Source of the DNA: Nitrosarchaeum sp. | GTDB lineage: Archaea > Thermoproteota > Nitrososphaeria > Nitrososphaerales > Nitrosopumilaceae | Direction: 5' to 3' | Assembly (NCBI GenBank): GCA_004297665.1 | Contig: SCUP01000095.1 | Span: forward strand, 1-11,869 | Length of the DNA stretch: 11,869 bases | Translations under genes and position numbers: made by a program | The notes under the pieces: generated by a model | Told to the model about the DNA's origin: nothing | Seen by the model: the letters and a program-made list of their open reading frames with translations, nothing else | Databases searched by the model: none | Shown: positions 1-11,869 of the stretch, piece by piece | Layout of the letters: the number at the start of each line of letters is the position of its first letter | Position numbering within the stretch: position 1 is the stretch's first letter

Positions 1-165
1 GCCAATGTCTATCTGTTTGTGTGGAGATAATTTCTCGTTGTAAACACGATCAAGTATAGGCTGATATGTTTTCATATGATCTTCATATGATTGTGGTTCT
101 GCAAAAGCATGTGGCATAGAAATTGCCAATACTACAATTGCAACCATCAAAAGTCTATTTTTCAT
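1..165 (-). CDS. Exported protein of unknown function (partial, 3' end outside window)
   Basis: The first 55 codons of a gene reading leftwards off the window edge. It starts with an ATG at 165-163 and opens with a clear signal peptide: Lys/Arg at positions 2-4, a hydrophobic core (LLMVAIVVLAI) and a likely signal-peptidase site after HAFA (residue 22). The short mature part that is visible (EPQSYEDHMKTYQPILD...) matches no family I know. The ATG overlaps the TGA stop of the Asp-box gene upstream in an ATGA arrangement, which suggests translational coupling in one operon. Its first codons and the bases before them almost copy those of the upstream gene (MKNRLL against MKTRLL). The product is inferred to act outside the membrane; its function is unknown. 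Confidence 0.75.
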   Translation of the reverse strand, partial: MKNRLLMVAIVVLAISMPHAFAEPQSYEDHMKTYQPILDRVYNEKLSPHKQIDIG

Positions 166-854
166 TTTCTAATCTCTGGAAAACTTGTTACCTCAAAAGT
201 ACCGTCTTTTCCATAGTCTACTGCCTTCCAAACTGTATACTGCCAATCTTTGTCATACATTTTCCAAGTAATGGTTACATTGTCTGCATCAACATCAATT
301 ATTGGTATTGCTCCTTCATTATACGGGTCTAGCTGCCAATCAACTTTAAAAATCAATTTTGGTTCAGAAAAAGTTTCTCCTCTATCATTGCTTTTTGAAT
401 ACCAAACCTCTCCTCTTGACTCTAGATCAATGTAAGTCAGATAAAGTGTCTCTCCATAATGTTTGATATCCGGTCTTGCACCATAAAATAACCTTTTTTT
501 CTCAAAAGTCTCACCCAAGTCTGTGGATTTTGCAAATGATAAGGTGGGTATGTCATATACCTCATCACGCCAGACAAGAATTACCTCTTTAGACATTAGA
601 ATTATTTTTGGTTCATGCGCATTTAGATTCGTCATACTCATGTCAATTGGCTCAGAAAATGTCTTGCCATAATCATCACTACGCGAAAACAAGACTCGAA
701 GATAGTAAATGTCATTTTCAAATTCAATGTTTTTTTGCCAGAATCTGTACTGGTATTTTTGGTCCATTCCAATATCTACAAAAGTTGTAATTGCCCATGT
801 AGACACAATGCCAATTACTATGATTCCAATTATTATCAAAAGTCTAGTCTTCAT
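162..854 (-). CDS. Membrane-anchored or secreted Asp-box (BNR/sialidase-like) repeat protein
   Basis: A 230-residue protein with an N-terminal hydrophobic stretch (residues 4-25) that acts as a signal or anchor, so the rest lies outside the cell. Three good Asp-box motifs of the S-x-D-x-G-x-T-F type are visible: near 59-66 (SDDYGKTF), 110-117 (STDLGETF) and 155-162 (SNDRGETF). A fourth, degenerate one lies near 215 (VDYGKDGTF). Spacing of about 45-55 residues fits beta-propeller blades as in sialidase-like folds. At 230 residues it is too short for a full six-bladed sialidase, and I see no catalytic Arg triad, so enzyme activity is not supported; sugar binding or adhesion is a guess. It sits 12 bases after the upstream exported-protein gene and overlaps the next gene by 4 bases, so the three probably form one operon. 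Confidence 0.85.
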   Translation of the reverse strand: MKTRLLIIIGIIVIGIVSTWAITTFVDIGMDQKYQYRFWQKNIEFENDIYYLRVLFSRSDDYGKTFSEPIDMSMTNLNAHEPKIILMSKEVILVWRDEVYDIPTLSFAKSTDLGETFEKKRLFYGARPDIKHYGETLYLTYIDLESRGEVWYSKSNDRGETFSEPKLIFKVDWQLDPYNEGAIPIIDVDADNVTITWKMYDKDWQYTVWKAVDYGKDGTFEVTSFPEIRK

Positions 855-866
855 TTTCTTTTAACT

Positions 867-1829
867 TCAGATTAGACAGCCACTTATAATTTCCAATTTA
901 GTGGAATTCTCTGCAAATTTGATCTGTAAAACTCGCATTTCATTTGTTGTCAAAATTTCATCATACCAAATTTCCTCACCATCAAGTATCACAAAAAATC
1001 TGTCATCAGGAGGATTGTCTAGATGAGGTGGGCAGTAATCCATTTTTGCATCAAGTAGATTTCGAGGCATACCAAGTACTAGATTGCCTTCATCAGCAGA
1101 ATCTATTTCCACCAATATGGAATTTGTATGGTTGCTAAAAGTCATATTTTTAATCATGCCGCCATTGATACCATATTCTACATCAAAGATTTTTTCATCT
1201 TTTGACACTTGAAAGACTAAAGGCGTCATTGGAAATTCAGAATTGATCATTTTCCAATCAAGTTTTTTAGTTTCAATCACACAAACTGTATATCTTTTAT
1301 CAGGACAAATTCCATCTTCACAAATTTTTAGATCAGTAAATTTACCGCCAATCAAAGAACATTGCAAATCTGAAATGTCCCTGCATCCGTTGTGTTCTTG
1401 ATGCCATTTTCCTCCATAGTTATTGCATAATGCCTCTGAGATATTATCTCCAGGCATTGCTAATCTCATTGTGGCCCATCCTCGCAATACAAGTTTACTT
1501 TCAGTATCTAGAGAAACACACGCAACTCTTATTCTGTCATATCTGATAGCAGGGACATTTCCCTCATTACATTTAACATCAACAAGTGCTATGCCTGATT
1601 TGATTTGTTTTAGTGGAGGCAATACATTTGAGACCAGATTTTTTTCATATAATTCAGTGCATTTTTCTCCATAGTACGGTTTACACCATTCCATAAACTC
1701 TTCAAATGTTTTTTCCTTCATGTCAAAGGGTAGTATGATAGAATGAATGTAAGGTTGTGTTGGATCATGTGTTGCAAAGGCAATTCCTGTAAATCCAATC
1801 AAAATTAACAGTAAAACAAGATATTTCAT
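867..1829 (-). CDS. Secreted Cys-rich protein of thaumarchaeal type, function unknown
   Basis: 320 residues from the ATG at 1829-1827. A longer frame back to 1922 exists, but it would bury the signal peptide (MKYLVLLLILIGFTGIAFA) 31 residues inside and overlap the HxlR gene, so the inner start is preferred. The mature protein has many cysteines, likely disulfides. A central segment (GIALVDVKC...RVACVS...KLVLRGWA) resembles a Cys-pair/RGW motif I associate with exported thaumarchaeal proteins. The C-terminal 45 residues (FVILDGEEIWYDE...VLQIKFAENSTKLEIISG) look like the beta-rich domain seen near the C-terminus of PEFG-type surface proteins, but no PEFG sorting signal or C-terminal helix follows. 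A TATA-like CTTTATG lies about 30 bases before the start, allowing a leaderless message; read-through from the HxlR gene is also possible. The family similarities are from memory. Confidence 0.8.
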   Translation of the reverse strand: MKYLVLLLILIGFTGIAFATHDPTQPYIHSIILPFDMKEKTFEEFMEWCKPYYGEKCTELYEKNLVSNVLPPLKQIKSGIALVDVKCNEGNVPAIRYDRIRVACVSLDTESKLVLRGWATMRLAMPGDNISEALCNNYGGKWHQEHNGCRDISDLQCSLIGGKFTDLKICEDGICPDKRYTVCVIETKKLDWKMINSEFPMTPLVFQVSKDEKIFDVEYGINGGMIKNMTFSNHTNSILVEIDSADEGNLVLGMPRNLLDAKMDYCPPHLDNPPDDRFFVILDGEEIWYDEILTTNEMRVLQIKFAENSTKLEIISGCLI

Positions 1830-1854
1830 TTTGATTAAATGATTTATCTGATGT

Positions 1855-1862
1855 TCATAAAG
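1855..1862 (-). promoter_or_regulatory. Possible TATA box for the exported-protein operon
   Basis: On the minus strand CTTTATGA is centred near 1858, about 29 bases before the ATG at 1829, the distance expected for a leaderless archaeal transcript. It lies just after the HxlR stop codon (1869-1867). The match to a consensus TATA box is only fair. Confidence 0.35.
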
Positions 1863-1866
1863 CGTT

Positions 1867-2256
1867 CTACTTTCCAAAAACTTGTTCAAGTGTTCGTGAC
1901 TTTCCATCTTTGAATACTTCACAGCTACAATACTTCATTGAAAATGCAGCCATCTGCATAATTATTGGTTTTAATGCTTTGCCTTTTTCAGTGACAGTAT
2001 ATTCTATTCTGATTGGTGTTTCGTTAAACACTGTTCTTTTGATCAGTTCGTTTTTTTCCATCTCTTTTAGCCTGACTGAAAGTGTCTTTGGATTAATTCC
2101 TTCAATTGATTCTAAAAACTCGTTGAATCTACTTTGACCAAGCAACGTAATGTTTCGCAGAATGTGGATAGTGAATTTTTTTCCAATAATTTTAAAAGTA
2201 TTATCAACGGGACAACATTGTATCTGATCTGATATTGCTTTTAGTTCCTGTGGCAT
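1867..2256 (-). CDS. HxlR-family winged-helix transcriptional regulator
   Basis: 129 residues from the ATG at 2256; a TTG one codon upstream is the other possible start. The HxlR pattern is clear along its length: N-terminal CCPVDNTFKIIGKKFTIHILRN, then the recognition region RFNEFLESIEGINPKTLSVRLKEME, then the wing and following strand RIEYTVTEKGKALKPII. Length is normal for the family, which binds palindromic DNA as a dimer. Four cysteines, two adjacent near residue 14 and two in CSC near residue 110, are notable, because some HxlR proteins sense thiol-reactive compounds or redox state through cysteines; a metal-sensing role is equally possible. The gene is divergent from the SEC-C protein gene and shares with it an intergenic region holding a strong palindrome, its likely operator. 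Confidence 0.9.
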   Translation of the reverse strand: MPQELKAISDQIQCCPVDNTFKIIGKKFTIHILRNITLLGQSRFNEFLESIEGINPKTLSVRLKEMEKNELIKRTVFNETPIRIEYTVTEKGKALKPIIMQMAAFSMKYCSCEVFKDGKSRTLEQVFGK

Positions 2257-2285
2257 CAACTTACCAAAACCTCATCCACTTTCTT

Positions 2286-2342
2286 GATAGTAACTTTCTA
2301 ATTAATATACTTACCTTTCTATAGTAACTATAAGAAAGTAAC
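2286..2342. promoter_or_regulatory. Shared divergent promoter with palindromic HxlR operator candidate
   Basis: The interval between the HxlR and SEC-C genes contains TATAGTAACTATA (2320-2332), a 13-base palindrome with one central base, flanked by TTTC (2316-2319) and, after one extra A, GAAA (2334-2337). The hexamer AGTAAC occurs three times: 2289-2294, 2323-2328 and 2337-2342. The copy at 2289 is in the extended form TAGTAACTTTCT and lies on the HxlR side; the main palindrome lies between a TATA-like TTAATATAC (2303-2310) and the SEC-C start at 2343. This layout would let one dimeric repressor block both directions. The palindrome is seen directly; the binding protein is inferred from position. 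Confidence 0.6.
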
Positions 2343-2684
2343 ATGGAATGCAATGATGGAACATGTAAAACAGAAAACCAAGAAAATTGTGCCTGTGGTT
2401 CTAGCAAATCATACGATGATTGTTGTGGATGCGAGACAATGGATCCAATACAACATGCTATGATGGGCTGGCACAAGGCATTTTTTGCAGCACACCATGA
2501 TGCAATGGCTGAAAGAATGAGAAAGAGAATAGAAACTGCATACGGACCAACAATGGACAAGGCAGCAGATGCTGTCTTTGAAGCAATTGGAAAGATGTGG
2601 GGCTCTATGCTTACTCAATCTGAGGCAAAAAAAGAAGTTGCATCAAAGTTGCAAAAAATATTTTCTGAAGCAAATAGGAAGTAA
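2343..2684 (+). CDS. Small SEC-C zinc-motif protein with helical C-terminal part
   Basis: 113 residues from the ATG at 2343. The N-terminal 30 residues hold seven cysteines: C3, C8, C16, C18, C27, C28 and C30. The stretch CACGSSKSYDDCCG (16-29) closely follows the SEC-C zinc-binding motif (CPCGSGKKYKKCCG in typical members), with the usual eight residues between the Cys pairs. This motif is best known from the SecA C-terminus and also occurs in many unrelated small proteins. Residues 33-113 look mostly helical and Lys/Glu/Ala-rich, with Met and His in an early segment (HAMMGWHKAFFAAHHDAMAERM) that could bind metal. I do not recognise the helical part. Control by the divergent HxlR regulator is likely from the shared palindrome. 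The job could be metal handling or stress response; neither is shown by the sequence. Confidence 0.8.
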   Translation: MECNDGTCKTENQENCACGSSKSYDDCCGCETMDPIQHAMMGWHKAFFAAHHDAMAERMRKRIETAYGPTMDKAADAVFEAIGKMWGSMLTQSEAKKEVASKLQKIFSEANRK

Positions 2685-2687
2685 AAT

Positions 2688-2707
2688 TCCTTTTTTTCTT
2701 TTTTTAT
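2688..2707 (+). terminator. T-rich terminator after the SEC-C gene
   Basis: Directly after the TAA stop comes a long pyrimidine tract made mostly of runs of T broken by single C and A bases. Archaeal RNA polymerase can stop on such T-tracts without a strong hairpin. The next gene on this side is convergent and ends at 2820. Confidence 0.5.
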
Positions 2708-2819
2708 TTAGTCTTTTATTCTCTCCATTCAAGAGTAAAAAGCACTTTTTTATACCAAGAACACTACATCGGTCTAGACGAATTCAAATTAAAAATGGGA
2801 GTGATTGGACTCAAATGGG

Positions 2820-3167
2820 TTATCCATTGTAATAATAACTGTTCCACATGGAATTATTTCGTAACGCTGAACCTTTTGGGATCGACATGTAATTCTTAAA
2901 CAATGTTGATTCCGCATGCCAATCGAGATAGTCAGTTTTCGATATGCTATGTGATAGCATATTGACACTTTCAATTTTCATATAACGTGGACAAGTAGAA
3001 TCGTGGTGATAACCGGGGGTATATGGTCTTACATTACAATACATACAATCACAATCAAAAGCATCGTCAAGTGGGGCTGTTGGATCGGAGGTATATCGTG
3101 GGCAATTCATCTTATGATGAAGACCTGGCAAATGTGAATCAGCATCACAATGTTTGCATATGGCCAT
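2820..3167 (-). CDS. Small protein with two tandem CxxC-PGxHH-CPRY zinc-type motifs
   Basis: 115 residues from the ATG at 3167. Starts at 3185 and 3182 are in frame, but a TATA box at 3200-3191 puts transcription start near 3169, which favours the shorter form (MAICKHC). The N-terminal half holds two copies of one motif, 37 residues apart. Copy 1 has C4-x2-C7, P14-G15, H17-H18, and C22-P-R-Y25. Copy 2 has C41-x2-C44, P51-G52, H54-H55, and C59-P-R-Y62. Spacing inside the copies is identical, so this is an internal duplication. Each copy offers two Cys, a His pair and a third Cys, suitable for one zinc or other metal ion. The C-terminal 50 residues are plain and unrecognised. I know no named family with this pattern. 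Nucleic-acid binding or metal binding are possible roles. Confidence 0.75.
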   Translation of the reverse strand: MAICKHCDADSHLPGLHHKMNCPRYTSDPTAPLDDAFDCDCMYCNVRPYTPGYHHDSTCPRYMKIESVNMLSHSISKTDYLDWHAESTLFKNYMSIPKGSALRNNSMWNSYYYNG

Positions 3168-3190
3168 GTGACATAATAACATCATTCTAA

Positions 3191-3200
3191 TATATAAAAA
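3191..3200 (-). promoter_or_regulatory. TATA box of the tandem Cys/His protein gene
   Basis: On the minus strand TTTTTATATA is a strong archaeal TATA box. Its centre near 3195 predicts transcription start at about 3169, two bases before the ATG at 3167, so the message is leaderless or nearly so. It decides the start codon against the in-frame ATGs at 3185 and 3182. Confidence 0.65.
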
Positions 3201-3245
3201 TACAGTTCAATGAAACTGATTTTTCTAAATTAGATCAAAAATGGA

Positions 3246-3338
3246 TAGGTGGTTAATTCAATACCATAAACTTGAATACGATCTTAACACGTTAAAACTT
3301 AAATTTAGAATTAATCCTGTAAAATAGGAAACCACCTA
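3246..3338. repeat. Inverted repeat with 9-bp arms in the divergent intergenic region
   Basis: TAGGTGGTT (3246-3254) and AACCACCTA (3330-3338) are exact complements separated by 75 AT-rich bases. The arms are GC-richer than their surroundings. The region lies between two divergent TATA boxes (3191-3200 minus, 3384-3392 plus), so this could be a pair of regulator sites, a long-loop RNA hairpin, or chance. Confidence 0.35.
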
Positions 3339-3383
3339 AATTCTGTTATCGGGTTTATTGGATGGTCATGTGGTAGCTTCTGT

Positions 3384-3392
3384 CTTTATATC
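3384..3392 (+). promoter_or_regulatory. TATA box of the 332-residue orphan gene
   Basis: CTTTATATC is a near-consensus archaeal TATA box centred at 3388, 27 bases before the ATG at 3415. This predicts a leaderless message and shows that the in-frame TTG at 3358 is not the start. Confidence 0.7.
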
Positions 3393-3414
3393 AATTAATC
3401 ACGTAATAGTAAAT

Positions 3415-4413
3415 ATGAAAAGATGGTGTGGTAAATCAAGAATAATAAAATTTAATCACTCCATAAAAGATCACTCTTCACCATTTCCAGTATACTGTGA
3501 CTCTGTAATCACCAAAGAATATCAGGGAGTCATTAAAATAATCCGAACAAACAAAGGCAAAGCCACAAAATACGAGAGACGTAGTACAGTGATATTTCCC
3601 GCAGACAAATATTCGTCATTAGATGATATTTATCACATTTTAAGTGCAGGAAGACAAGAATTAATTCTAAAAAATATTAAATTAGTTGATAAATTCTGTG
3701 TCAATGATAAAAACAAAGAATACATTTTCTGTGATGTAATTGAAACCATAGAACGTTCTAATCCAAAAATTAAAAAAATTTTCATTGATCAAAAAATTCG
3801 TTATTATCCCGAGATATTAGATATAGTTGGATTGGAAGTTTATGTTACTGAAGAATGGGGTGATAAAGAATTGATAATAAAGCAATTTTTGGAACAACAT
3901 GGTAAACTAGAGACTATAGATGATTTTTCCCACAAATCAAGAGAAATTCGCAGTACTTTTCGCCTATTGGTAATTCGCCACGCCGTATTTCTATTTGCTG
4001 AGAGTTGTAAAAATACAGATCTTTCTAGAACAATTAAGTCCAATATCCTTGGTCCACTTGATCTTGTTCTTACTGATGCCATTTTTAATGCACAATTAGT
4101 GACTGATAAGAGATTTGAAAAACTATCAAGAATTACAAGGAAAGAAATAGTGAGAACTAGAAGATTAAAAGAACTAATGACAGAAAAAAAGATCAAGAAC
4201 ATTAATCGCGGTATTGAAGAATTAAGTAAAGAACTTAAAATTGCAAACAAATCAGTAAGAAGATCTTGCACTTCAATGTTCAAAAAATTTGAATTTACAA
4301 TTATAGATTTATTAGATGAAAAACATAAAGAACATGCCACATACATTAGCGAGCAGATAATTAAACGGTTAAATGTTCTACAAAAAGCTTACAAATGTTT
4401 TAAATGTGAATAG
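3415..4413 (+). CDS. Orphan protein, 332 residues, Lys-rich with predicted coiled coil, function unknown
   Basis: The frame is open from a TTG at 3358, but the TATA box at 3384-3392 sits inside that extension and points to the ATG at 3415. I do not recognise the protein. There is no signal peptide or membrane helix. The N-terminal third (MKRWCGKSRI... to about residue 75) looks like mixed alpha/beta; the C-terminal third (roughly residues 225-320) is strongly charged and helical, with heptad-like stretches (RRLKELMTEKKIKNINRGIEEL) typical of a coiled coil, and the protein ends in CFKCE, a CxxC pair. By eye it uses more AAA, ATT and AAT codons than its neighbours, which may mean recent gain by transfer. 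A short T-tract follows the stop. It stands alone, so context gives no clue to its job. Confidence 0.75.
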   Translation: MKRWCGKSRIIKFNHSIKDHSSPFPVYCDSVITKEYQGVIKIIRTNKGKATKYERRSTVIFPADKYSSLDDIYHILSAGRQELILKNIKLVDKFCVNDKNKEYIFCDVIETIERSNPKIKKIFIDQKIRYYPEILDIVGLEVYVTEEWGDKELIIKQFLEQHGKLETIDDFSHKSREIRSTFRLLVIRHAVFLFAESCKNTDLSRTIKSNILGPLDLVLTDAIFNAQLVTDKRFEKLSRITRKEIVRTRRLKELMTEKKIKNINRGIEELSKELKIANKSVRRSCTSMFKKFEFTIIDLLDEKHKEHATYISEQIIKRLNVLQKAYKCFKCE

Positions 4414-4428
4414 TTTTTTTTATTTTTC
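4414..4428 (+). terminator. T-rich terminator after the orphan gene
   Basis: The TAG stop is followed at once by a run of eight T, an A and five more T. No clear hairpin precedes it, which is usual for archaeal T-tract termination. Confidence 0.45.
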
Positions 4429-4498
4429 AAAAACATCAAGCTACTAATTAGATATAGATACTAAACCACTACAGCTTCCAACAACACTGTCATATAAT

Positions 4499-4810
4499 AT
4501 GAACAATTTGCGCGTATGTTACGTGGAGGTGATAAAAATCCAACAAACAAAAAAAATCATTATGATAGCAATCATAGCAGGATTATCTATCATAAGCTAT
4601 CCAACCCTACTTGAACCAATCTTTAAAGATACAATTTCCTGTCTTATCCATCAAAAACCACTCCCATCACATTGTATCAACTCAACACCATACATGATAT
4701 TTGGTTCTTGGTGGGGTTCGGTTGGCAATTGGTGGGCAAGAAATAGCTGGCATCTTGGGGACAACATGCATTACTTCCATCCATCGTTGCCATTCATAAG
4801 ACACTATTAA
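4499..4810 (+). CDS. Small Trp-rich membrane protein of unknown function
   Basis: 103 residues from the ATG at 4499. The start is uncertain: a TATA-like CATATAAT touches this ATG and would place transcription start near 4521, which fits a leaderless GTG start at 4523 (95 residues); an ATG at 4562 is a third choice. A Shine-Dalgarno-like GGAGGTGAT lies at 4525-4533 but has no start codon at a suitable distance. One membrane helix is clear (IIMIAIIAGLSIISYPTLL), preceded by positive residues, so the C-terminal part is probably outside. That part has two cysteines (in SCLIH and SHCIN) and a Trp cluster (SWWGSVGNWWARNSWH) ending in His/Tyr/Pro-rich sequence. The two Cys may form a disulfide. I know no family for it. 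It ends right before a hairpin terminator, which supports a real transcribed gene. Confidence 0.6.
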   Translation: MNNLRVCYVEVIKIQQTKKIIMIAIIAGLSIISYPTLLEPIFKDTISCLIHQKPLPSHCINSTPYMIFGSWWGSVGNWWARNSWHLGDNMHYFHPSLPFIRHY

Positions 4811-4811
4811 T

Positions 4812-4834
4812 ACCGCATCTAGCGGTTTTTTTTT
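4812..4834 (+). terminator. Hairpin plus T-tract terminator
   Basis: ACCGC (4812-4816), loop ATCTA, GCGGT (4822-4826), followed by a run of nine T starting at 4826. It begins two bases after the stop codon of the small membrane protein. This is the most classical intrinsic terminator in the window. Confidence 0.75.
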
Positions 4835-4839
4835 CTTTT

Positions 4840-4861
4840 AATTAGGATCACAGTCCTAATT
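4840..4861. repeat. 8-bp perfect hairpin in the intergenic region
   Basis: AATTAGGA (4840-4847) and TCCTAATT (4854-4861) are exact complements around a 6-base loop, directly after the terminator T-tract. It could be a second terminator hairpin, a transcript 3' end stabiliser, or a regulator site. Confidence 0.45.
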
Positions 4862-4938
4862 TCTCCAAATGTTGATTGATTTTGCGATCAGAGTAATTTA
4901 GTTGAAAGTATTACTTTTTAATCATAACTTCCATTATG

Positions 4939-4993
4939 AGTCAAACGTGAGGCTCTTGTCTATACCCCAGCACTTCATCATTGGGGTATAGAC
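4939..4993 (+). ncRNA. Structured dispersed element, copy 1 (possible small RNA)
   Basis: The element begins AGTCAAAC, has GGCT a few bases on, and then a perfect 12-bp stem: GTCTATACCCCA (4958-4969) with TGGGGTATAGAC (4982-4993) around a 12-base loop starting GCA. The stem is far more GC-rich than the AT-rich surroundings. A second copy at 11249-11305 shares the order of blocks, and one stem pair differs by a compensatory change (G-C here, A-T there). TACTTTTTAATC about 26 bases before AGTCAAAC could be a TATA box, and a T-rich run follows near 5014-5020. The strand is not settled, because the stem is symmetric. A small RNA, a mobile mini-element or a protein-bound DNA palindrome are all possible. 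Confidence 0.5.
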
Positions 4994-5186
4994 GGAGGGT
5001 TAGAATTGTCACTATTTTTCTTCCAGAAATAGGTAGAGATAAGGAAGTAATCCGAAAATAAAGACATAACTTAGTTTTTTTCAATTTTAATTGATCATTT
5101 TTTGTTGATATCTTAACTTGTCCATATTTTATCAAATTTATAAAATTAAATTGAAAAAATCTCAGTTTTTGATCCTAGTCTCAGAT

Positions 5187-5222
5187 GTGAAAATCTTGAT
5201 CATTCCTTTATATGATTTTCAC
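5187..5222. promoter_or_regulatory. Inverted repeat flanking a TATA-like box
   Basis: GTGAAAATC (5187-5195) and GATTTTCAC (5214-5222) are exact 9-bp complements. Between them lies CCTTTATATG (5205-5214), a good TATA-box match on the plus strand. A regulator binding both arms could control a transcript starting near 5236. No convincing gene follows there, so the target is unknown. Confidence 0.4.
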
Positions 5223-5704
5223 GTATTAACCTTGGTAACAGCCAACTAGAAAGAAAATGATTTGCGTGATCAAATCAAGGGGAGGTCTTAGGATCACTCT
5301 ATATCTGGAAGACTGTTATCATCATATCATTCTGCCTTGAATCGGAGAAAAGCATGTTATTTAGATTCTTAATAATTTGAATATCATCTACGTAACAACA
5401 CATAATGATTTATCATAAAAATAGAATCATTTGAAAACTTTGGGCTTTATTGCATAAAGCAACTTCAGTAATTATCAATATTACGAGGGACTTTGTTCGA
5501 TACTCACACAACATCTTTTTTCTAGATCTATCATGATGTAATGCCACCATTTTTAGAATTAAAGATATTCAGTATTACCAGTGTCAACAGGAGTTTGTAG
5601 TTTTTTAGAATTTGAAATTATAGTTGTTCCTCAGACAAATATCATATCTGATAATCTGAAATTAGTTTAAAACAATTAAACAGGTAATGAATTAAGGTAA
5701 AATC

Positions 5705-6586
5705 ATGACAAACTTGAGTACAAGTCTAGGCGATTTATCTCTAGAGGGACTATTTCCACAAACATTAACTGATGTATCTTGTCCTGAAATTCAAAAAAAT
5801 AGGGAAGTTTGGGTAGCTACAGAGATGTGTGCTCAATATCTAGAGTCTACCATAGATGCAATCATAGTTCGAGGTGATGATAACAAACTTGCTGGCATAG
5901 TTGGAGGCTATGATCTATTAGACGCCATACGAAAAAATCCAACACGTGATTTTCAGTACACTTGTGCAATAGAGGAAATAATGTTCAAAGACTTTCTACA
6001 AGTTGAAAAGAAAACAAAATTCAAAGATTTGATGGAAAAGTGGAAAAATACTCGAAGAGCTTTTGCTGTCATTTCTAATAATTCTGGTGGCTATTCTCCC
6101 ATCTCTGCAAGAAAAATGCTTGAAATTGGCATAAGATACAAAACTGACATGACTGTCTCATCAATATCAAAAAAGAAGATCATCACTTTTCAAGGTGATG
6201 AGCCATTGAGTAAAATACTGGATTTGATGTTTGAAAATAAAACACGAAAACTTTTGCTAGTAAACTCTAATCAATTTATCAGTGACAGGACAATACTTGA
6301 GGGAATCTCGAGAATGCTAAAATTTCAACAAAATATTGATAATTTTTTGGATGTTCCAATTAATCAGTTTACATTTGATCACATAAAGGTAATTACAGAA
6401 GACCTAAAGTTTGACAAACTTTGTTCAGTCATGAACAAAATGGAACATCCGTATGTGATTTACAAGGATATTGTAGTCAGCCCTTGGGATGTATGTCTAT
6501 CTTTGATGAATGAAAATATGACAGAGATTAGCGAGAAATATCAAATGAAACGAAAATGTCCTCATTGTGGAAAGAATGTGGATTAA
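5705..6586 (+). CDS. Four-CBS-domain protein with C-terminal zinc knuckle
   Basis: 293 residues from the ATG at 5705. Soluble, with four CBS-like units forming two Bateman modules. Unit 1 lies near residues 25-80 (IDAIIVRGDDNKLAGIVGGYDLLDAI), unit 2 near 85-150 (less typical), unit 3 near 155-210 (ISKKKIITFQGDEPLSKILDLMFENKTRKLLLVN), and unit 4 near 220-275 (KVITEDLKFDKLCSVMNKMEHPYVIY). CBS pairs usually bind adenosyl nucleotides such as AMP, ATP or SAM and change the activity of a partner. Here no enzyme or transporter domain is fused; instead the protein ends in KRKCPHCGKNVD, a CxxC half zinc ribbon that needs a second Cys pair, perhaps by dimerisation. The next gene, 156 bases on, is a single-CBS protein, so the two may pair. 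CBS assignment is strong; ligand and partner are unknown. Confidence 0.85.
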   Translation: MTNLSTSLGDLSLEGLFPQTLTDVSCPEIQKNREVWVATEMCAQYLESTIDAIIVRGDDNKLAGIVGGYDLLDAIRKNPTRDFQYTCAIEEIMFKDFLQVEKKTKFKDLMEKWKNTRRAFAVISNNSGGYSPISARKMLEIGIRYKTDMTVSSISKKKIITFQGDEPLSKILDLMFENKTRKLLLVNSNQFISDRTILEGISRMLKFQQNIDNFLDVPINQFTFDHIKVITEDLKFDKLCSVMNKMEHPYVIYKDIVVSPWDVCLSLMNENMTEISEKYQMKRKCPHCGKNVD

Positions 6587-6742
6587 ATCCATCTTTTTTC
6601 CAATATAATTTCACTAACATTTCATATTTTAGAAATCAAGTCGATATAGTTTTACTACAAATCCTGCAATAGTAGTTGTTGCAAAAGGAATATGAAATTG
6701 GTTAGAAGTTAAATTCATCCTGAAAAAACAATCTGAAGAAAG

Positions 6743-6961
6743 ATGTCTCACGAACCTGTAGAACTAAATGTTTCAGCATACATGACAAAAACTCCCATTA
6801 CTATATCTCAAAACATTTCATTTGTTGATGCAGTTACCAAAATGTACAAAAATGGAATTGTGAATTTGATTGTAGTTAATAATGATAAAGTTACAGGATT
6901 ACTATCTGAGCGGCAAATTCTGCAATATTTGGTAACTGAGAAAATTATCTTTCATACATAA
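6743..6961 (+). CDS. Single-CBS-domain protein (half Bateman module)
   Basis: 72 residues from the ATG at 6743. It is almost exactly one CBS unit: VSAYMTKTPITISQNISFVDAVTKMYKNGIVNLIVVNNDKVTGLLSERQILQYL. CBS units act in pairs, so a lone unit should form a homodimer or join the four-CBS protein upstream. Most small archaeal CBS proteins have two units in 120-140 residues, so this one may have lost its second half; however, it ends in a normal stop and I see no CBS-like sequence in other frames downstream. The stop codon is one base from the stop of the convergent nuclease-like gene, so the two 3' ends overlap in transcription. No clear TATA box was found in the preceding 156 bases. Confidence 0.8.
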   Translation: MSHEPVELNVSAYMTKTPITISQNISFVDAVTKMYKNGIVNLIVVNNDKVTGLLSERQILQYLVTEKIIFHT

Positions 6962-6962
6962 A

Positions 6963-7352
6963 TCAAATTATGTGAATGTTTTTCCTATTTTCAAGTCCTA
7001 GTTCTATCAGTACCTGATGAAGTTCTGATTCGCATCCTTTGGAGATTATGATGTAAAACGGAACATCTTTTCCTATAGATTTTCCACTAGTCATTACTTT
7101 GTTTGCAAATTCTTGAAATTGTTGTTTGGTGTACTGGTTATTGATATTCCCACATGTTTTTGCCTCACCTATGTAATCTAATTCTTGGTTAACATCTCGT
7201 GCTCTCACATCTGGCTCAAAGATTTTTACTTTTTCACAATCTACATACCCTGAACATGCACAAGTTACAATTAATCCCATAGATTCAAAATGCTCCATCA
7301 GTTTTCTCACTAGTCCTTTATGTTCATCCGGTATTGAGATAGATGAATCCAT
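6963..7352 (-). CDS. PD-(D/E)XK nuclease-like protein
   Basis: 129 residues from the ATG at 7352; an in-frame TTG at 7358 is less likely. The core fits the PD-(D/E)XK superfamily: EPDVRARD with P-D near residues 47-48, then about 15 residues on the strand motif YIGEAKT with E and K at 63 and 65, then a Gln-rich helix (QYTKQQFQEFANKV) and a last strand (FYIIISKG). D48, E63 and K65 would be the metal and catalytic residues. An N-terminal helix precedes (HKGLVRKLMEHFESMG), followed by three Cys (CACSGYVDC) that could bind metal or form a disulfide. This fold serves DNA repair, resolvases, restriction and some RNA enzymes, and the sequence does not decide which. It lies 30 bases after the RAM-domain gene and may share its transcript. 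Activity is inferred. Confidence 0.6.
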   Translation of the reverse strand: MDSSISIPDEHKGLVRKLMEHFESMGLIVTCACSGYVDCEKVKIFEPDVRARDVNQELDYIGEAKTCGNINNQYTKQQFQEFANKVMTSGKSIGKDVPFYIIISKGCESELHQVLIELGLENRKNIHII

Positions 7353-7382
7353 ATTCAATAATCTAAATCTTGAATCTGCATC

Positions 7383-7619
7383 TTATTTCTTGTCAATTGA
7401 ACCGCCCTGACCATATACTGCAGTCATGGTATAGCTACTAGTTACTCCTTTAATTGATCTTATTTTGCTTATTGCTAAATCTATATCGCCTGGGAGATTG
7501 CCAGTAATTTTTACAATTATGTCATATTTTCCCATTATGCCATTGACCTCAATTACTTCAGGAATTTTGTTTAGATCTCCAATAATATTTTTTTCTTGTG
7601 AAGGTATACAATTTATCAA
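7383..7619 (-). CDS. Stand-alone Lrp/AsnC-type ligand-binding (RAM) domain protein
   Basis: 78 residues with the pattern of the Lrp/AsnC C-terminal domain: KNIIGDLNKIPEVIEVNGIMGKYDIIVKITG, then DLAISKIRSIKGVTSSYTMTAVY. There is no DNA-binding helix-turn-helix, so this is a stand-alone RAM domain, a fold that binds amino acids or similar ligands and assembles into dimers and octamers. The start is unusual. The first ATG/GTG/TTG codon is a TTG at 7619, and the in-frame codons just before it read AYI, matching the AY-hydrophobic-INC opening common in this family, but contain no ATG. A TATA box at 7654-7645 puts transcription start near 7623, which supports a leaderless message starting at the TTG or at the ATT just before it. 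It may regulate or pair with full-length Lrp proteins elsewhere. Confidence 0.8.
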   Translation of the reverse strand: MINCIPSQEKNIIGDLNKIPEVIEVNGIMGKYDIIVKITGNLPGDIDLAISKIRSIKGVTSSYTMTAVYGQGGSIDKK

Positions 7620-7644
7620 AATGTAGGCAAGTATTCTTATTTCA

Positions 7645-7654
7645 CCATATATTC
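7645..7654 (-). promoter_or_regulatory. TATA box of the RAM-domain gene
   Basis: On the minus strand GAATATATGG is centred near 7649, which predicts transcription start at about 7623. This is 0-4 bases before the TTG at 7619 and supports a leaderless, non-ATG start. Confidence 0.5.
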
Positions 7655-7715
7655 AGAGTCAATTCAACTACTTAAAAATACAAACTTCGAAATTCAGTTT
7701 TGAGAACTCATGCGT

Positions 7716-8024
7716 TTACTTTTTTTCTGCATTTCCATCAATCATCACCATGGATATTGTTGCAGCGAAAAGCACTCTTGGGATCCAAGTTCGCTTTGAC
7801 TTTGGAGGAGTAAATTTGCCAACTAAAAGAATTGTTCTGCCTTCAAATCTCTCTAGTCTTGCAACCAAATTTTTTGACTCTAGTACTCGTACAAGTTCAA
7901 CAAACTTTTGTTTGAATCCTTCTTGTTCTATTTCAAACTGAAGTGCATCAAGATTTTGATTAATACTTTTTACTTCAAATATTGAAGAGACCGTATTGAT
8001 TACCTCTTGTCTTGATTCACTCAT
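7716..8024 (-). CDS. M50 (site-2-protease-like) N-terminal domain without the protease part
   Basis: 102 residues from the ATG at 8024. The sequence (a small alpha/beta domain ending [32 protein letters not shown]) resembles, from memory, the cytoplasmic N-terminal domain and first membrane helix of archaeal S2P-like M50 metalloproteases. In those proteins the PPK...R-W-P-LF-AT...DG segment leads into a membrane protease core with HExxH. Here the protein stops with NAEKK just after the first helix, and no HExxH or later helices occur downstream. It is either a remnant of a broken protease gene or a separate regulatory domain. The ATG overlaps the end of the copper ATPase gene by 8 bases, so it is probably translated with the pump. 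The family link is inference; the absence of a catalytic part is directly visible. Confidence 0.65.
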
Positions 8025-10146
8025 TTTTTACCATATCCTCTTGTTGTGGAAGCTTGAATCTTTTTAATAAAGTAGAATTTGCAATTACAGAAATGGAACT
8101 TAGTGCCATTGCGGCTGCAGCAATTATTGGACTAAGTAAGCCCATTGCAGCTATTGGAATTGCACCTGTGTTGTAAGCCAAAGCCCAAAACAAGTTTTGC
8201 TTTATTTTCTTCATTGTAGCGCGACTCAATCTAATGGCTCGTGCAACATCCATGATGTCATCTTTGATTAGTATGATTCCACCAGTCTCTTTTGCAATGT
8301 CTGAACCACTGCCAATTGCAATGCCAATATCGGCTTGTGCTAGAGCTGGTGCATCATTGATTCCATCTCCAACCATTGCAACAACCGTTCCATCAGACTG
8401 TAGTTTTTTTATGATGTTTGCCTTTTCAGCTGGCAAAACATTTGCAATTACTTTGTCGATTCCAACTAATTTTGCAACAGAGTTGGCAGTCTTTTCATTG
8501 TCTCCAGTAAGCATTATGGTTTTAATTCCAAGCTTTTTTAGATCATATATTGCATCTTTTGATGATTCCTTTATGGTGTCAGCAACGGCCACTAGTCCAG
8601 ATATGTTTTGATCAACTGAAATAATCATTACTGTCTTTCCCTGAGATTCTAAATTTTCCATTTCTTGCTCAATTTTATCAGTTGTAATTCCAAACTTTTG
8701 CATCAATTTTCTATTTCCAAAGAAGACCTGCTTGCCGTTTACAATTGCTTTTACACCCATACCTGAAACAGCTTCAAATTCTGAAGGATTTCTCAGAATG
8801 ATTCCCTTTTGTCTTGACTCACTTACTATTGCCTGTGCCAGTGGGTGCTCTGAGCCCATTTCTACAGAGCCGGCAAACTCTATCAAATTTTCTCTAGAAT
8901 GCAAACCAAAAGAAACCACATCTGTTACAGATGGTTCTCCTTTTGTTATAGTGCCAGTCTTGTCAAACACTATTGTTTTTATTTTTTCAGAGCGTTCAAG
9001 ATATTCAGCACCTCGTATCAAAATGCCAGCTTCGGCACCTTTTCCAACTCCAACCATTAATGCAGCTGGTGTTGCAATTCCCATAGCACATGGGCATGCA
9101 ATTATCAATACTGCCACAAATGAAAGTAACCCAATAATGAAATTATCAAAAACAAAAAACCATACCAGAAAAGATCCAATCGCTACCAATACAACAGCTG
9201 GAACAAACTTTGCAGATATGGAGTCAACAAGTCTTTGTATGTGACCTGTAGATGCTTGCGCTTCCTCTACTATGTGGATAATTTGCGATAATGCCGTCTC
9301 CTTTCCCACTTTGGTTGCCTTTACTTTTAACAATCCTTGTTTGTTGATTGTGGCACCAATGACTTGATCACCGACAGACTTGTCAACTGGCAGACTTTCA
9401 CCAGTTATCATTTTTTCATCAACTGCGGAGCTTCCCTCAATTATTACTCCGTCAGTTGGGATTTTTTCGCCAGGCTTTATTATCAGAATATCTCCTACCT
9501 GAACCTGATTTGCTGGAATCTCTACTTCGTTTCCATCTTTGATTTTTCTTGCCATGGCTGGTCTAAGATCTAATAATTTTCTTACAGCAGCAGAACTTTT
9601 CTTTTTGATTGCCTCTTCCATGTATTTTCCTAACAGGACAAAAGCAATGATTACTGCAGATACCTCAAAGTAGATATCCCGTTCCTTTACAGGAAGAGCA
9701 TCAGGAAAGAACAAAACTGTAACACTGTAAAAGTATGCCACAAGCGTTCCAATTGAAATTAAAAGATCCATGTTGGCAGTTTTTCTTTTTATGGAGTGAT
9801 ACGCCCCAACATAGAATGTCCAACCACCAATGAACTGCACAGGTGTAACGATAAGAAACAAAAGCATCCCCCATGAAAGAAATGGAATTTGTGGAATTGG
9901 AATCCATGTGACTGCTACTGCACCAAATGCCAATCCCAAATACAAGCTAGCTCGAAGTATTGCTAAAATGAGTGCGCCAGATGCGGCTACATACATTCTT
10001 TTTTTGAGCTTGGCAAGTTCTTTTTCTGGATTTACAAATGTCTGTTGGCACACTGGACTGCAAAAGTAAAAGTCCCTTGATCCAATTTCGGAATGAATTG
10101 CTTTTTTTTCATCTACTATCATTCCGCATACAGGATCTTTTGCCAT
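8017..10146 (-). CDS. copA: Cu+-exporting P1B-type ATPase with N-terminal YHS domain (CopA-like)
   Basis: 709 residues; pumps Cu+ (or Ag+) out of the cytoplasm using ATP. The N-terminus is a YHS metal-binding domain (DPVCGM with C7, then C29 and C33 in [12 protein letters not shown]) instead of the usual HMA domain. About eight membrane helices follow in P1B order. Key residues are visible: the actuator TGES at 248-251; the ion-binding CPC at 351-353; phosphorylated D395 in DKTGT; SEHPLA with the nucleotide-binding His; GDGIND at 593-598; and YN plus MALSS in the last two helices, the signature of the Cu+ subgroup. Length is normal for an HMA-less form. The gene is divergent from a TRASH-like mini-protein, overlaps the M50-like domain gene by 8 bases, and has an AT-rich TATA candidate (TTTAATTTTAAG, 10180-10169) about 28 bases before the start. 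Substrate is inferred from the motifs. Confidence 0.95.
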
Positions 10147-10168
10147 TTACAACTTGAGAAATAACTTT

Positions 10169-10206
10169 GCTTAAAATTAAACAACTATCAAATAATCAGA
10201 ACTGAT
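10169..10206 (-). promoter_or_regulatory. Promoter and possible operator of the copper ATPase gene
   Basis: On the minus strand TTTAATTTTAAG (10180-10169) is a TATA candidate placing transcription start near 10149, just before the ATG at 10146. Upstream of it ATCAG (10195-10199) and CTGAT (10202-10206) form a short dyad with a 2-base spacer, inside the longer look-alike AATAATCAG...CTGATAATG. It lies between two divergent metal-related genes and could bind a copper regulator. The dyad is short, so chance is possible. Confidence 0.35.
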
Positions 10207-10294
10207 AATGAGATGTTAAATTTTACAAATGTAAAGATGCCCTTTAAGTATGATGGAATTTGCATAACCTTTCAACCATGAATTTTGCAAAGAC

Positions 10295-10303
10295 GTTTAA
10301 AAG
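10295..10303 (+). promoter_or_regulatory. TATA box of the TRASH-like gene
   Basis: GTTTAAAAG is centred at 10299, 28 bases before the ATG at 10327, which predicts a leaderless transcript for the mini-protein and the overlapping membrane-protein gene. Confidence 0.5.
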
Positions 10304-10326
10304 TAAGAATTGGATACTGATGATTC

Positions 10327-10509
10327 ATGTTTGAAAAACATTGTCAGATATGTGGCATTGAAGTAAAAAAAGAATCAGCCAGTAAAAGATTTGGCAAGTA
10401 CTTTTGTAATGACGAACACGCAAACCAATTTGTTACAAAAAAAGCAGAAGAGGAAAAACAGCAAGAAGAATACAGAAGGAGTCACCCAAGACGTGGCGGA
10501 TGTTGTTAA
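10327..10509 (+). CDS. TRASH/YHS-like metal-binding mini-protein
   Basis: 60 residues from the ATG at 10327. The fold core is C6-x2-C9 (CQICG), then GKYFCNDEH with C27 and H31, then ANQFV. This follows the TRASH/YHS pattern of small treble-clef-like domains that bind copper or zinc, with His in place of the last Cys. A charged helix (KKAEEEKQQEEYRR) follows, and the protein ends RGGCC, a second possible metal site. It is divergent from the copper ATPase, whose own N-terminus is a YHS domain, so a role as copper chaperone or sensor cofactor is a fair inference. It lacks a helix-turn-helix, so it is not itself a classical regulator. Its last 17 bases overlap the preferred start of the next gene. 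Confidence 0.75.
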   Translation: MFEKHCQICGIEVKKESASKRFGKYFCNDEHANQFVTKKAEEEKQQEEYRRSHPRRGGCC

Positions 10510-10930
10510 AAATCCAACACAATCAGAAAGGCCAATAGGCATTACAATATTGGGTGTTTCATTTATCGTTGTTGCAGTTCTCATGTCAATAGCAACAGCA
10601 ATGATTGGAACATTCATGGTAATACTTGGAAGCTATTCTACTATGATGAACAACATGATTTCTGCCATGGGTGGAATGTTTGTCGTTTTTATTGGAATCC
10701 TTGCAGGTATAGAGTTTGCAATAGTATATGCCTTGTTTAGCGGAAAGAATTGGGGGAGAATAACCATCATCGTATTATCTATAGTAGATTTTATTGTACA
10801 TTGTGCAACACTTGTAGTAGGTAATCTATTTGCAATACCTCACATCATTTTGGATGTAGCGGTTTTCTTTTACATGTGGAAACCTAGTGTTGTTTCTTAT
10901 TTTAATCAAGAAAAATCAAGTCTAGTATGA
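10493..10930 (+). CDS. Four-helix membrane protein, function unknown
   Basis: 145 residues from a GTG at 10493. The frame is open back to a TTG at 10391, but that would overlap the TRASH-like gene by 119 bases. The GTG overlaps it by only 17 and has a purine-rich AGAAGGAG (10474-10481) 11 bases before it, so the GTG is preferred. The protein starts with about 15 polar residues and then RPIGITILGVSFIVV, a common opening of small archaeal multi-helix membrane proteins. Four membrane helices are visible: about residues 16-40, 58-78, 88-106 and 110-130, with a Met-rich loop (YSTMMNNMISAMGGM) between the first two. The Met cluster could touch Cu+, which would suit the neighbourhood, but this is a guess. 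Likely translated together with the TRASH-like protein. Confidence 0.75.
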   Translation: MADVVKNPTQSERPIGITILGVSFIVVAVLMSIATAMIGTFMVILGSYSTMMNNMISAMGGMFVVFIGILAGIEFAIVYALFSGKNWGRITIIVLSIVDFIVHCATLVVGNLFAIPHIILDVAVFFYMWKPSVVSYFNQEKSSLV

Positions 10931-11017
10931 GATACAATTAATTTTATACTCTTATCATGTCTTTAATCTATGCAATAGATCATGTCAAATTATTCTTTCT
11001 AAAATTAATTTTTTAAG

Positions 11018-11174
11018 TTATGGATTCATTTGATTATTCATCATATGACCAGTAGTACATGTACTGTTGATCATCATTTTCATTTCTTGTCATTGTTCTG
11101 GATTTAAGGCTACAAATAAAATAACCAAAAGAATGCCTACTGCAATAATTCAGAACAGTGTAGGAACCAACTAT
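11018..11174 (-). pseudogene. Possible decayed small membrane-protein gene
   Basis: Reading leftwards from 11174, the frame gives VGSYTVL. If one A is skipped near 11148, it goes on IIAVGILLVILFVALNPEQ, a convincing membrane helix, then a TGA stop, and after that QEMKMMINSTCTTGHMMNNQMNP and a TAA. The presumed start codon is ATA instead of ATG. One start change, one frameshift and one stop would explain a dead gene of about 50 residues with a Met/His/Cys tail. The segments are short, so chance is a real alternative. Confidence 0.25.
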
Positions 11175-11248
11175 ATCTTGTGAATTAAAGAATTAAAGAT
11201 CAGGAATTTTCTAGAATAATTGTAATTTTGATTATAATGTTCGTATGT

Positions 11249-11305
11249 AGTCAAACCTAGTCGGCTTATCTATACCCCAGCATTACATTTTTGGGGATAT
11301 AGATA
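11249..11305 (+). ncRNA. Structured dispersed element, copy 2 (possible small RNA or leader)
   Basis: Same block order as copy 1: AGTCAAAC (11249-11256), GGCT, then stem TATCTATACCCCA (11267-11279) with TGGGG (11292-11296), one bulged A, and TATAGATA (11298-11305). The loop again starts GCA and is 12 bases long. Compared with copy 1, a G-C pair is replaced by A-T on both sides of the stem. It lies about 110 bases before the permease start on the same strand, so it could also belong to a leader. Confidence 0.5.
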
Positions 11306-11338
11306 ATGAACATCCACTTGACTTGTAATGTTCATTAT
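11303..11338. repeat. 11-bp perfect hairpin directly after structured element copy 2
   Basis: ATAATGAACAT (11303-11313) and ATGTTCATTAT (11328-11338) are exact complements around a 14-base loop. The left arm shares three bases with the preceding stem, so both hairpins cannot be complete together. GAACAT in this arm could also pair with ATGTTC at 11237-11242, upstream of the element. Confidence 0.55.
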
Positions 11339-11379
11339 AACTAAAACTACAATTTACTCATATAATCAAATGAAAAGCC

Positions 11380-11408
11380 GTATATCCTAGCTCCTTGTCG
11401 ACTCGACA
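11380..11408 (+). promoter_or_regulatory. Permease promoter with palindrome near the start site
   Basis: GTATATCC (11380-11387) is a TATA candidate 30 bases before the ATG at 11415. TGTCGA-C-TCGACA (11396-11408) is an odd palindrome with 6-bp arms lying between it and the start codon, where a repressor could act. The palindrome is GC-richer than its surroundings. Both calls rest on pattern and position only. Confidence 0.35.
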
Positions 11409-11414
11409 GATTCA

Positions 11415-11869
11415 ATGTCTGAAATTCCTGCATCAGGTCTTGTACGTAGTCTATCTCTGGTAGACATTGTCATGGTAGGAATTGCAGCCATGATAGGTGG
11501 TGCCATCTTTGTATTGGTTGGTCCAGCGATGGATGAGGCAGGACCAGCACTTATGATTGTGTTTTTAGTAAATGGTGTAATCACATTATTTACAGCCATG
11601 ACTTATGCAGAACTTGGTTCTGCACTTCCCGAAGCTGGAGGCGGTTATGGCTGGATTAGACAGGGATTGCCAAGACCAAATGCATTCATCAGCGGATGGA
11701 TGGCGTGGTTTGCACACATGATAGCAGGAAGTCTTTATGCAGTAGGCTTTGGTTCGTTTCTTGCTCATTTGCTTACCATAATGAACATAGTAGTTTTTGA
11801 AGGATTAGACAAAATAATTGCAGTACTGGCAGTTGTGCTTTTTACTTACATTAATGTCAAGGGAGCATC
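11415..11869 (+). CDS. APC-superfamily amino-acid permease (partial, 3' end outside window)
   Basis: The first 151 codons of a gene running off the right edge, starting at the ATG at 11415 with MSEIPASGLVRSLSLVDIVM. The opening is the first-helix signature of the amino acid-polyamine-organocation family: GIAAMIGGAIFVLVGPAM, where the unwound GxIG-like segment binds the substrate's amino and carboxyl groups. Helix 2 follows (ALMIVFLVNGVITLFTAMTYAELGSALPEAGGGYGWI) with the conserved YAELG...P.AGG.Y motif, then the start of helix 3 (ISGWMAWFAHMIAG) and helix 4. It would import or exchange amino acids or related amines across the membrane; the substrate cannot be read from this part. A TATA candidate and a palindrome lie just upstream, and the structured element copy 2 lies further upstream on the same strand. 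Confidence 0.9.
   Translation, partial: MSEIPASGLVRSLSLVDIVMVGIAAMIGGAIFVLVGPAMDEAGPALMIVFLVNGVITLFTAMTYAELGSALPEAGGGYGWIRQGLPRPNAFISGWMAWFAHMIAGSLYAVGFGSFLAHLLTIMNIVVFEGLDKIIAVLAVVLFTYINVKGA

Follow-up and report, generated by a model that had tools for sequence, protein, structure and literature searches.

Hairpins on a Nitrosarchaeum contig as probable seams between stacked casposon-type elements beside a tRNA gene

Casposons have been discussed as a source of CRISPR adaptation, and the stretch of DNA analysed here (the window, the whole 11,869-nucleotide contig SCUP01000095.1 of a Nitrosarchaeum sp., labelled C39) contains two hairpins which are very probably DNA seams between stacked casposon-type elements beside a tRNA gene, with copies of the insertion target as their loops. 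The casposon of Methanosarcina mazei is described with a 14-bp duplication that includes the last 4 bp of tRNA-Leu (PMC6977970), its tandem insertion has been seen in the laboratory, and tandem insertion is named as an argument for the origin of arrays (PMC10359463). The casposon of Aciduliprofundum boonei is reported to have a TCAAATC motif 8 bp upstream (PMC6614799). Among thaumarchaea, the tandem casposons NitNF5-C1/C2 in the ef-2 gene were described with Cas1/PolB, and in the same 2019 survey thaumarchaeal casposons were inserted in ef-2, a further protein gene or an intergenic site, tRNA-Pro being the target of one (PMC6563490).

The window belongs to a draft genome (G000; 1.55 Mb, 393 contigs, completeness 86%, contamination 6.6%), and the analysis took in 18 genomes of the genus (congeners have labels such as G005 and G008) and, at the level of the family, 200 genomes from 22 genera. 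A sequence-only reading had proposed two structured copies in unrelated intergenic regions, at 4939-4993 and 11249-11305, and these hairpins are real: the stretches 4937-5000 and 11247-11310 align, AGTCAAAC and TCTATACCCCAGCA are identical in both, and the folds are stronger than those of shuffles (z -4.27 for copy 1 and -2.65 for copy 2). The compensatory change that had been pointed out, from G-C at 4958/4993 in copy 1 to A-T at 11268/11304 in copy 2, is also present, and the stem of copy 2 has one extra A. Of the motifs said to be shared, the two just named are kept, whereas GGCT is displaced by 2 nucleotides between the copies and is missing from a one-armed copy on contig C24 of the same genome, and therefore is not a conserved feature. 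Likeness of the left arm extends about 30 bp upstream of AGTCAAAC, beyond the hairpin.

The one-armed copy on C24 was a weak third match in the window's genome (E 0.245) of a covariance model built from the two window copies only. Here AATGATGAAGTGCT and then the 3' end of tRNA-Glu(CTC) come after the left arm, in the place of the partner arm; in the sense of the tRNA, the sequence reads CGACGGG, then AGCACTTCATCATT, which is also the loop of copy 1, then GGGGCATAGA. The loops are composed of the last four bases of tRNA-Glu(CTC), AGCA, and 10 bases downstream (ARAGORN places the end of the tRNA one base past AGCA on C24 and exactly at AGCA in the congener G005), and the anatomy of a seam is an inverted element end of about 60 bp terminating in TCTATACCCC, a 14-bp loop, and another inverted element end. 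Two models were used for the ends, R2 for the left-type arm (sequence only, 5 input sequences including the window copies) and R3 for the second, right-type arm (4 input sequences). The parts of the two seams, named according to the interpretation above, are as follows.

4909..4968, plus strand: right end of element A, left-type terminal repeat TTTTTAATCATAA..AGTCAAAC..GTCTATACCCC; R2 match at 4913-4974 with 58.7 bits (partly own model input), the boundary 4968 being set by the loop
4969..4982, plus strand: loop of copy 1, 14-bp target copy AGCACTTCATCATT, identical to the tRNA-Glu(CTC) edge on C24
4983..5022, minus strand: left end of element B, right-type repeat GTGACAATTCTAA..CCTCCGTCTATACCCC (read outward); R3 match at 4983-5020, minus strand, with 37.8 bits
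11219..11278, plus strand: right end of element B, left-type repeat; R2 match at 11222-11284 with 58.8 bits (own model input)
11279..11292, plus strand: loop of copy 2, 14-bp target copy AGCATTACATTTTT, identical to the tRNA-Glu edge of G005 (locus L091)
11293..11350, minus strand: left end of element C, left-type repeat inverted; R2 match at 11290-11350, minus strand, with 49.6 bits (own model input)

Three of the loops agree exactly with tRNA-Glu edges. The loop of copy 1 is identical to the window genome's own tRNA-Glu edge on C24 (14/14), the loop of copy 2 to that of G005 (14/14, against 10/14 to the loop of copy 1), and the loop of a seam on contig C21 of G008 to the tRNA-Glu edge of G008 (14/14). 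As a control, 38 sequences were searched on both strands, and among their 3,775 AGCA-14-mers only eight match any of 16 tRNA-Glu edges of the genus exactly, namely five tRNA sites and three hairpin loops. These edges include AGCACTTyAwCATT in the window's genome, G004, G006, G011, G016 and G017, and AGCATTACAyTTTT in G005 and G014, and both kinds are represented by one loop each on the window contig. In the same 38 sequences, a pattern derived from known ends found nine seams (the two of the window, L084, L087, L088, L164, L165, L179 and L181), with a loop of unambiguously 14 nucleotides in five of them; L088 and L181 were left out of the comparison of loops with edges. The loop of a seam in G010 agrees at 13/14 positions with that genome's own tRNA-Ser(GCT) edge.

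The ends recur well beyond the window. Lack of further copies in related genomes had been named as a reason to give up the sequence-only reading; the covariance model has matches in 4 of the 18 genus genomes (E <= 1), and these point to DNA element ends. At E <= 0.001, R2 matches 8 of the 18 and, in the family, 27 of the 200 genomes and 6 of the 22 genera; at E <= 1 it matches 17 of the 18, mostly weakly. R3 matches 11 of the 18 at E <= 0.1, its ten best places (E <= 1.7e-6) lying in G002, G007, G008, G009, G010, G014 and on contigs C39 and C275 of the window's genome. A survey of 37 sequences, the window and 36 loci picked for holding arms or Cas1, gave 30 left-type and 8 right-type matches (E <= 0.05); by alignment, the two types have the terminal TCTATACCCC in common and little else. 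An exact pattern matched only the window's genome among 61 genomes, and exact scans of sets of genome contigs and viral contigs gave 0 matches.

Ends adjoin a called tRNA-Glu(CTC) on C24, G008:C25, G002:C9 and G006:C71, in G139, G029 and G117, and in altered form in G005; they adjoin tRNA-Ser(GCT) in G006:C66 and G008:C15, and tRNA-Pro in G096. They start exactly 14 bp from the first of the last four tRNA bases, and on C24, G008:C25 and G006:C71 and in G139, G029, G117 and G096 the left arm stands alone beside the called tRNA, without a hairpin partner. The 3' end of tRNA-Glu was located in 16 of the 18 genus genomes, with an element-end-like sequence directly after the 14 bp in nine. Among the other seven, four (G003, G009, G010 and G017) have a common downstream flank 19-38 nucleotides from the tRNA, and three (G001, G007 and G015) have 1.5-2.4 kb of other DNA between the tRNA and this flank. 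Behind the last element of G008 come AGCACTTGAACTTG and the flank as at the empty site of G010. The tRNA-Glu of the window's genome carries TCAAATC-N8-AGCA, in agreement with the motif spacing of the A. boonei casposon (PMC6614799).

Several side observations concern these ends. Five loci (L086, L089, L092, L095 and L175) have no called tRNA and show a T-arm-like TCAAATT-N8-AGCA/AGTA, then 9-11 nucleotides and GGGG, the same spacing as the A. boonei casposase motif. The right-type ends in the seams of L084, L165, L179 and L181 all have, on the other side of the loop, an end of a third type (with GTGCAAAATC..ACTATATTCCC or a similar sequence), which perhaps represents a distinct subfamily. At a tRNA-Glu in G002:C9 lies an element of 973 bp (L085, 10084-11056) whose left-type ends are inverted and whose outer copies agree at 10/14; it is possibly a natural mini-casposon. 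In G005:C114 (L091, ~4103-4197), a palindrome of about 100 bp with altered element ends lies directly at tRNA-Glu.

The hairpins had been thought to mark a small RNA or a mobile mini-element; the second suggestion came near the mark, and the first found no support. It has become very unlikely that the hairpins are two paralogous genes for a structured small RNA kept through base pairing, for all that the stable folds, the two-sided pair change and the pairing retained with changed bases in other seams (CCCC/GGGG versus TTCCC/GGGAA) would suit such an RNA. These ends may nonetheless be transcribed. The Rfam check that had been suggested gave none of 4227 families at gathering score across the whole window, single arms stand at tRNA genes without a partner, the loops are tRNA edges, and homology reaches beyond the stem. 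Pairing is expected anyway, since a single inverted repeat is the source of both arms, and the apparent two-sided change arises because neighbouring ends carry the same base in a stem made of two facing copies of that repeat: the base before TCTATA is G in copy 1, G005:C114, G008:C25 and G139, and A in copy 2, C24 and G006:C71. That each hairpin is itself a palindromic element of about 120 bp, resembling a miniature inverted-repeat transposable element, is scarcely credible; the short palindrome at tRNA-Glu in G005 has this form, whereas elsewhere the ends pair over 1-15 kb, and a loop that is a target copy places the element outside the hairpin and not inside it. An integron attC site or a hairpin of the IS200/REP type was weighed on anatomy only and dropped once the loops proved to be tRNA edges. 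A match within a family-B polymerase gene was also considered. CTATACCCCAGCA occurs exactly three times in the window's genome, the third time within a gene with a family-B DNA polymerase motif and without a second arm, and TCTATACCCCAGCATTA (17 nucleotides) is common to copy 2 and a family-B polymerase gene at C263:2094-2106 (L003 ~1500-1517). The C263 match, as a target or antisense site, was taken as chance, because it encodes SLYPSII, lacks a second arm, and has an AGCA which is fixed by the tRNA.

C24 also carries the only Cas1 found in the 86%-complete genome (Pfam PF01867, E 1.6e-53), and a Cas1 match is present in 7 of the 18 genus genomes. Its closest relative is from a Nitrosarchaeum sp. 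(90%), and in the PDB it matches 6opm best, over residues 2-401 with E 4.8e-67 (5.5e-27 for the next entry), so that the closest solved Cas1 is one which we take to be the M. mazei casposase. An 885-amino-acid protein on C24 has homologues with the family-B polymerase domains PF00136/PF03175, and itself gave no direct Pfam or PDB match. The C24 element has an inverted end at the tRNA-Glu side, its other end lying beyond the contig. G139, from another genus, holds a 14,657-bp element with inverted ends, complete at both sides and with a complete duplication, between identical 14-bp AGCACGTTTCTATT copies, one of them at tRNA-Glu; compared with C24, its cas1 is 77%, its polB 51% and two small genes 51% and 41% identical. 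With Cas1 and a family-B polymerase in both, and terminal inverted repeats and a duplication at both ends in G139, these two elements are casposons. The C24 casposon may belong to family 1 or 2: its gene set (cas1, three small genes and polB) resembles the description of family 1 (PMC4046053), to which a Nitrosarchaeum Cas1 has been assigned (PMC12097351), while its Cas1 has 6opm as best PDB match.

Two further observations concern Cas1 genes. Beside the C24 Cas1 (L081, 1336-5168) lie a C5 cytosine methylase, which PADLOC rates as DrmMII-like, and a 726-amino-acid protein containing HATPase domains and a weak response-regulator match; these may possibly be defence cargo of the casposon. G008:C2 (L169, 9411-12410) has two opposed Cas1 genes with about 1 kb between them; either shares about 27% identity with the Cas1 of C24, and they may stem from a CRISPR system or from another casposon family.

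The elements of the window and their genes are listed below; ORF denotes an open reading frame.

1..4968: element A, left end beyond the contig, right end 4909-4968
1867-2259, minus strand: HxlR-type regulator (A), one of a regulator pair
2343-2684, plus strand: 113-amino-acid protein (A); other genes of A are without family match
4983..11278: element B, 6,296 bp
5705-6586, plus strand: CBS protein (B)
6743-6961, plus strand: CBS protein (B)
6963-7358, minus strand: ORF (B)
7383-7619, minus strand: AsnC-type protein (B)
7716-8024, minus strand: ORF (B)
8017-10146, minus strand: heavy-metal P-ATPase (B), with TIGR01525 and copper TIGR01511 above cutoff
10327-10509, plus strand: ORF (B)
10391-10930, plus strand: ORF (B), overlapping the ORF at 10327-10509
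11293..11869: element C, running off the contig, with an amino acid permease gene that starts at 11415 (plus strand; AA_permease_2, E 1.5e-15)

In the sense of the tRNA, the window order is A, 14 bp, B, 14 bp, C. None of 16 window ORFs matched Cas1 or PolB in Pfam, and tblastn with the C24 proteins found none at E <= 1. Element B has inverted ends on both sides and lacks a detected Cas1/PolB and identical target copies, and since no Cas1/PolB was found in it, it is termed casposon-type and not filed as a casposon. Ends like its left end are also present in G002, G008 and G009, and its cargo is found elsewhere near such ends: the last 3 kb beside tRNA-Ser in G006, and four genes beside tRNA-Glu in G029, of another genus. 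The ATPase of B recurs beyond a seam in G002:C3. The G006 relative of B is a mosaic, in which a stretch of 770 bp with 92% identity adjoins one of 2,087 bp with 72%. The A regulator pair has 92% protein identity to two genes inside the element at 298-4193 of G008:C21, which is 3,896 bp long, has both ends and gave no Cas1/PolB match.

Compared with the published systems, the window resembles NitNF5-C1/C2 in that two inverted-ended elements are stacked on one target with target copies between them, and differs in its tRNA-Glu target and in that no Cas1/PolB was found in the unit between its seams (PMC6563490). As in M. mazei, the duplication takes in the final 4 bp of a tRNA gene and 10 bp more; the M. 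mazei casposon differs in its tRNA-Leu with CGCA, its different ends and its autonomy (PMC6977970, PMC10359463). The laboratory M. mazei mini-casposon provides a model: there, ends without a cas1 of their own inserted into an existing target copy and gave a tandem, with an artificial marker in place of the natural unit B, for which movement in trans is our inference (PMC10359463). The growth of a CRISPR array beside its leader shares integrase chemistry of the Cas1 type and the re-use of a short target copy (PMC6977970, PMC10359463). The present elements are unlike a CRISPR array in being kilobase elements with inverted ends and not spacers, and no CRISPR function is implied. The tandem casposon seam is thus of a known kind, and the new part is the tRNA-Glu target, the cargo-only units and the loop from another lineage; neither natural cargo-only casposon elements nor tRNA-Glu as a casposon target was found in the open-licence literature, supplements aside.

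On our interpretation, a Cas1 integrase (casposase) would recognise the T-arm and 3' edge of the tRNA, insert an element, duplicate 14 bp and re-use the site, so that elements stack, and elements without cas1, such as B, would be moved in trans by casposases like that of C24. Since the cargo is found with the same end at different tRNAs, it has probably moved. On the simplest reading of the foreign loop of copy 2, B and C would have been joined earlier at tRNA-Glu in a G005/G014-like host and would have arrived as a block; alternatively, they might have come by recombination at the tRNA. The shared loop suggests that the window lies in the same array as C24. In its full form, the proposal is of accretion arrays that arise naturally at tRNA 3' edges as a Cas1 integrase adds cas1-less cargo cassettes (metal efflux, redox-type regulators and transporters), re-using the 14-bp copy like the CRISPR repeat beside the leader. 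Copies trapped between cassettes would then preserve the tRNA edge of a former host and thereby show from which lineage a joined block came. We give this proposal nearly, though not quite, an even chance.

Its most serious competitor accepts the seams and lets the stack arise from homologous recombination at the ends or tRNA loci, with B as a decayed casposon that lost cas1 and was not moved in trans; this we consider somewhat doubtful and still well worth weighing. It would accommodate the cas1 of G008:C25, which is cut down to query residues 192-401, and the cas1 fragments of G034, the foreign loop in copy 2, the unequal outer copies and the mosaic identity of the B relatives in G006. It fits less well with the retention of both ends of B, with a tRNA-Ser of G006 as the site of the right part of B and a tRNA-Glu of another genus as the site of B-type cargo, or with the second Cas1-less two-ended element in G008:C21. 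Attachment sites of a tyrosine recombinase, with attP-like cores, inverted arms around an overlap and integration at tRNA 3' ends, are by comparison extremely unlikely. Such targets are indeed tRNA 3' ends, and one- and two-armed sites would look alike, whereas in G139 the arms stand inverted at both element ends with a 14-bp direct repeat and Cas1 lies inside the element, an anatomy shared by published casposons. No tyrosine recombinase Pfam family appeared among the 10 C24 ORFs scanned, no dedicated integrase search having been made.

Several findings weigh against the interpretation of the hairpins as casposon-type seams, or against parts of the array proposal. The loop is 12-14 nucleotides long in the remaining four of the nine seams, according to how the C/G run is divided, and the loops in G034, G002:C3 and C275 fit no tRNA-Glu edge well (best 9, 11 and 8 of 14 among 16 edges); for the C275 loop, a second place had been expected in the window's genome, and none was found with one mismatch allowed. 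The two loops flanking B differ (10/14 identical), so that B alone lacks a matching duplication. Of the four elements with both edges seen, only that of G139 has identical outer copies (14/14); in the other three they are unequal (G008 11/14, G002 10/14, G005 11/14), which implies that copies drift or are exchanged. The cas1 frame of G139 has 370 amino acids and its last part continues in another frame, so that the gene seems to be frameshifted near its end. The link between C24 and the window is not assembled, and with 6.6% contamination in the draft it is possible that the window contig is chimeric.

The seams also carry a warning, in that a reading based on hairpins and covariation can take the junctions of transposons for RNAs. 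If the array proposal is true, a natural stack of cas1-less cargo split by 14-bp tRNA-edge copies would be a testable field example for the origin of arrays. Moreover, trapped copies could tag the provenance of metal and redox genes as these pass between ammonia-oxidising archaea.

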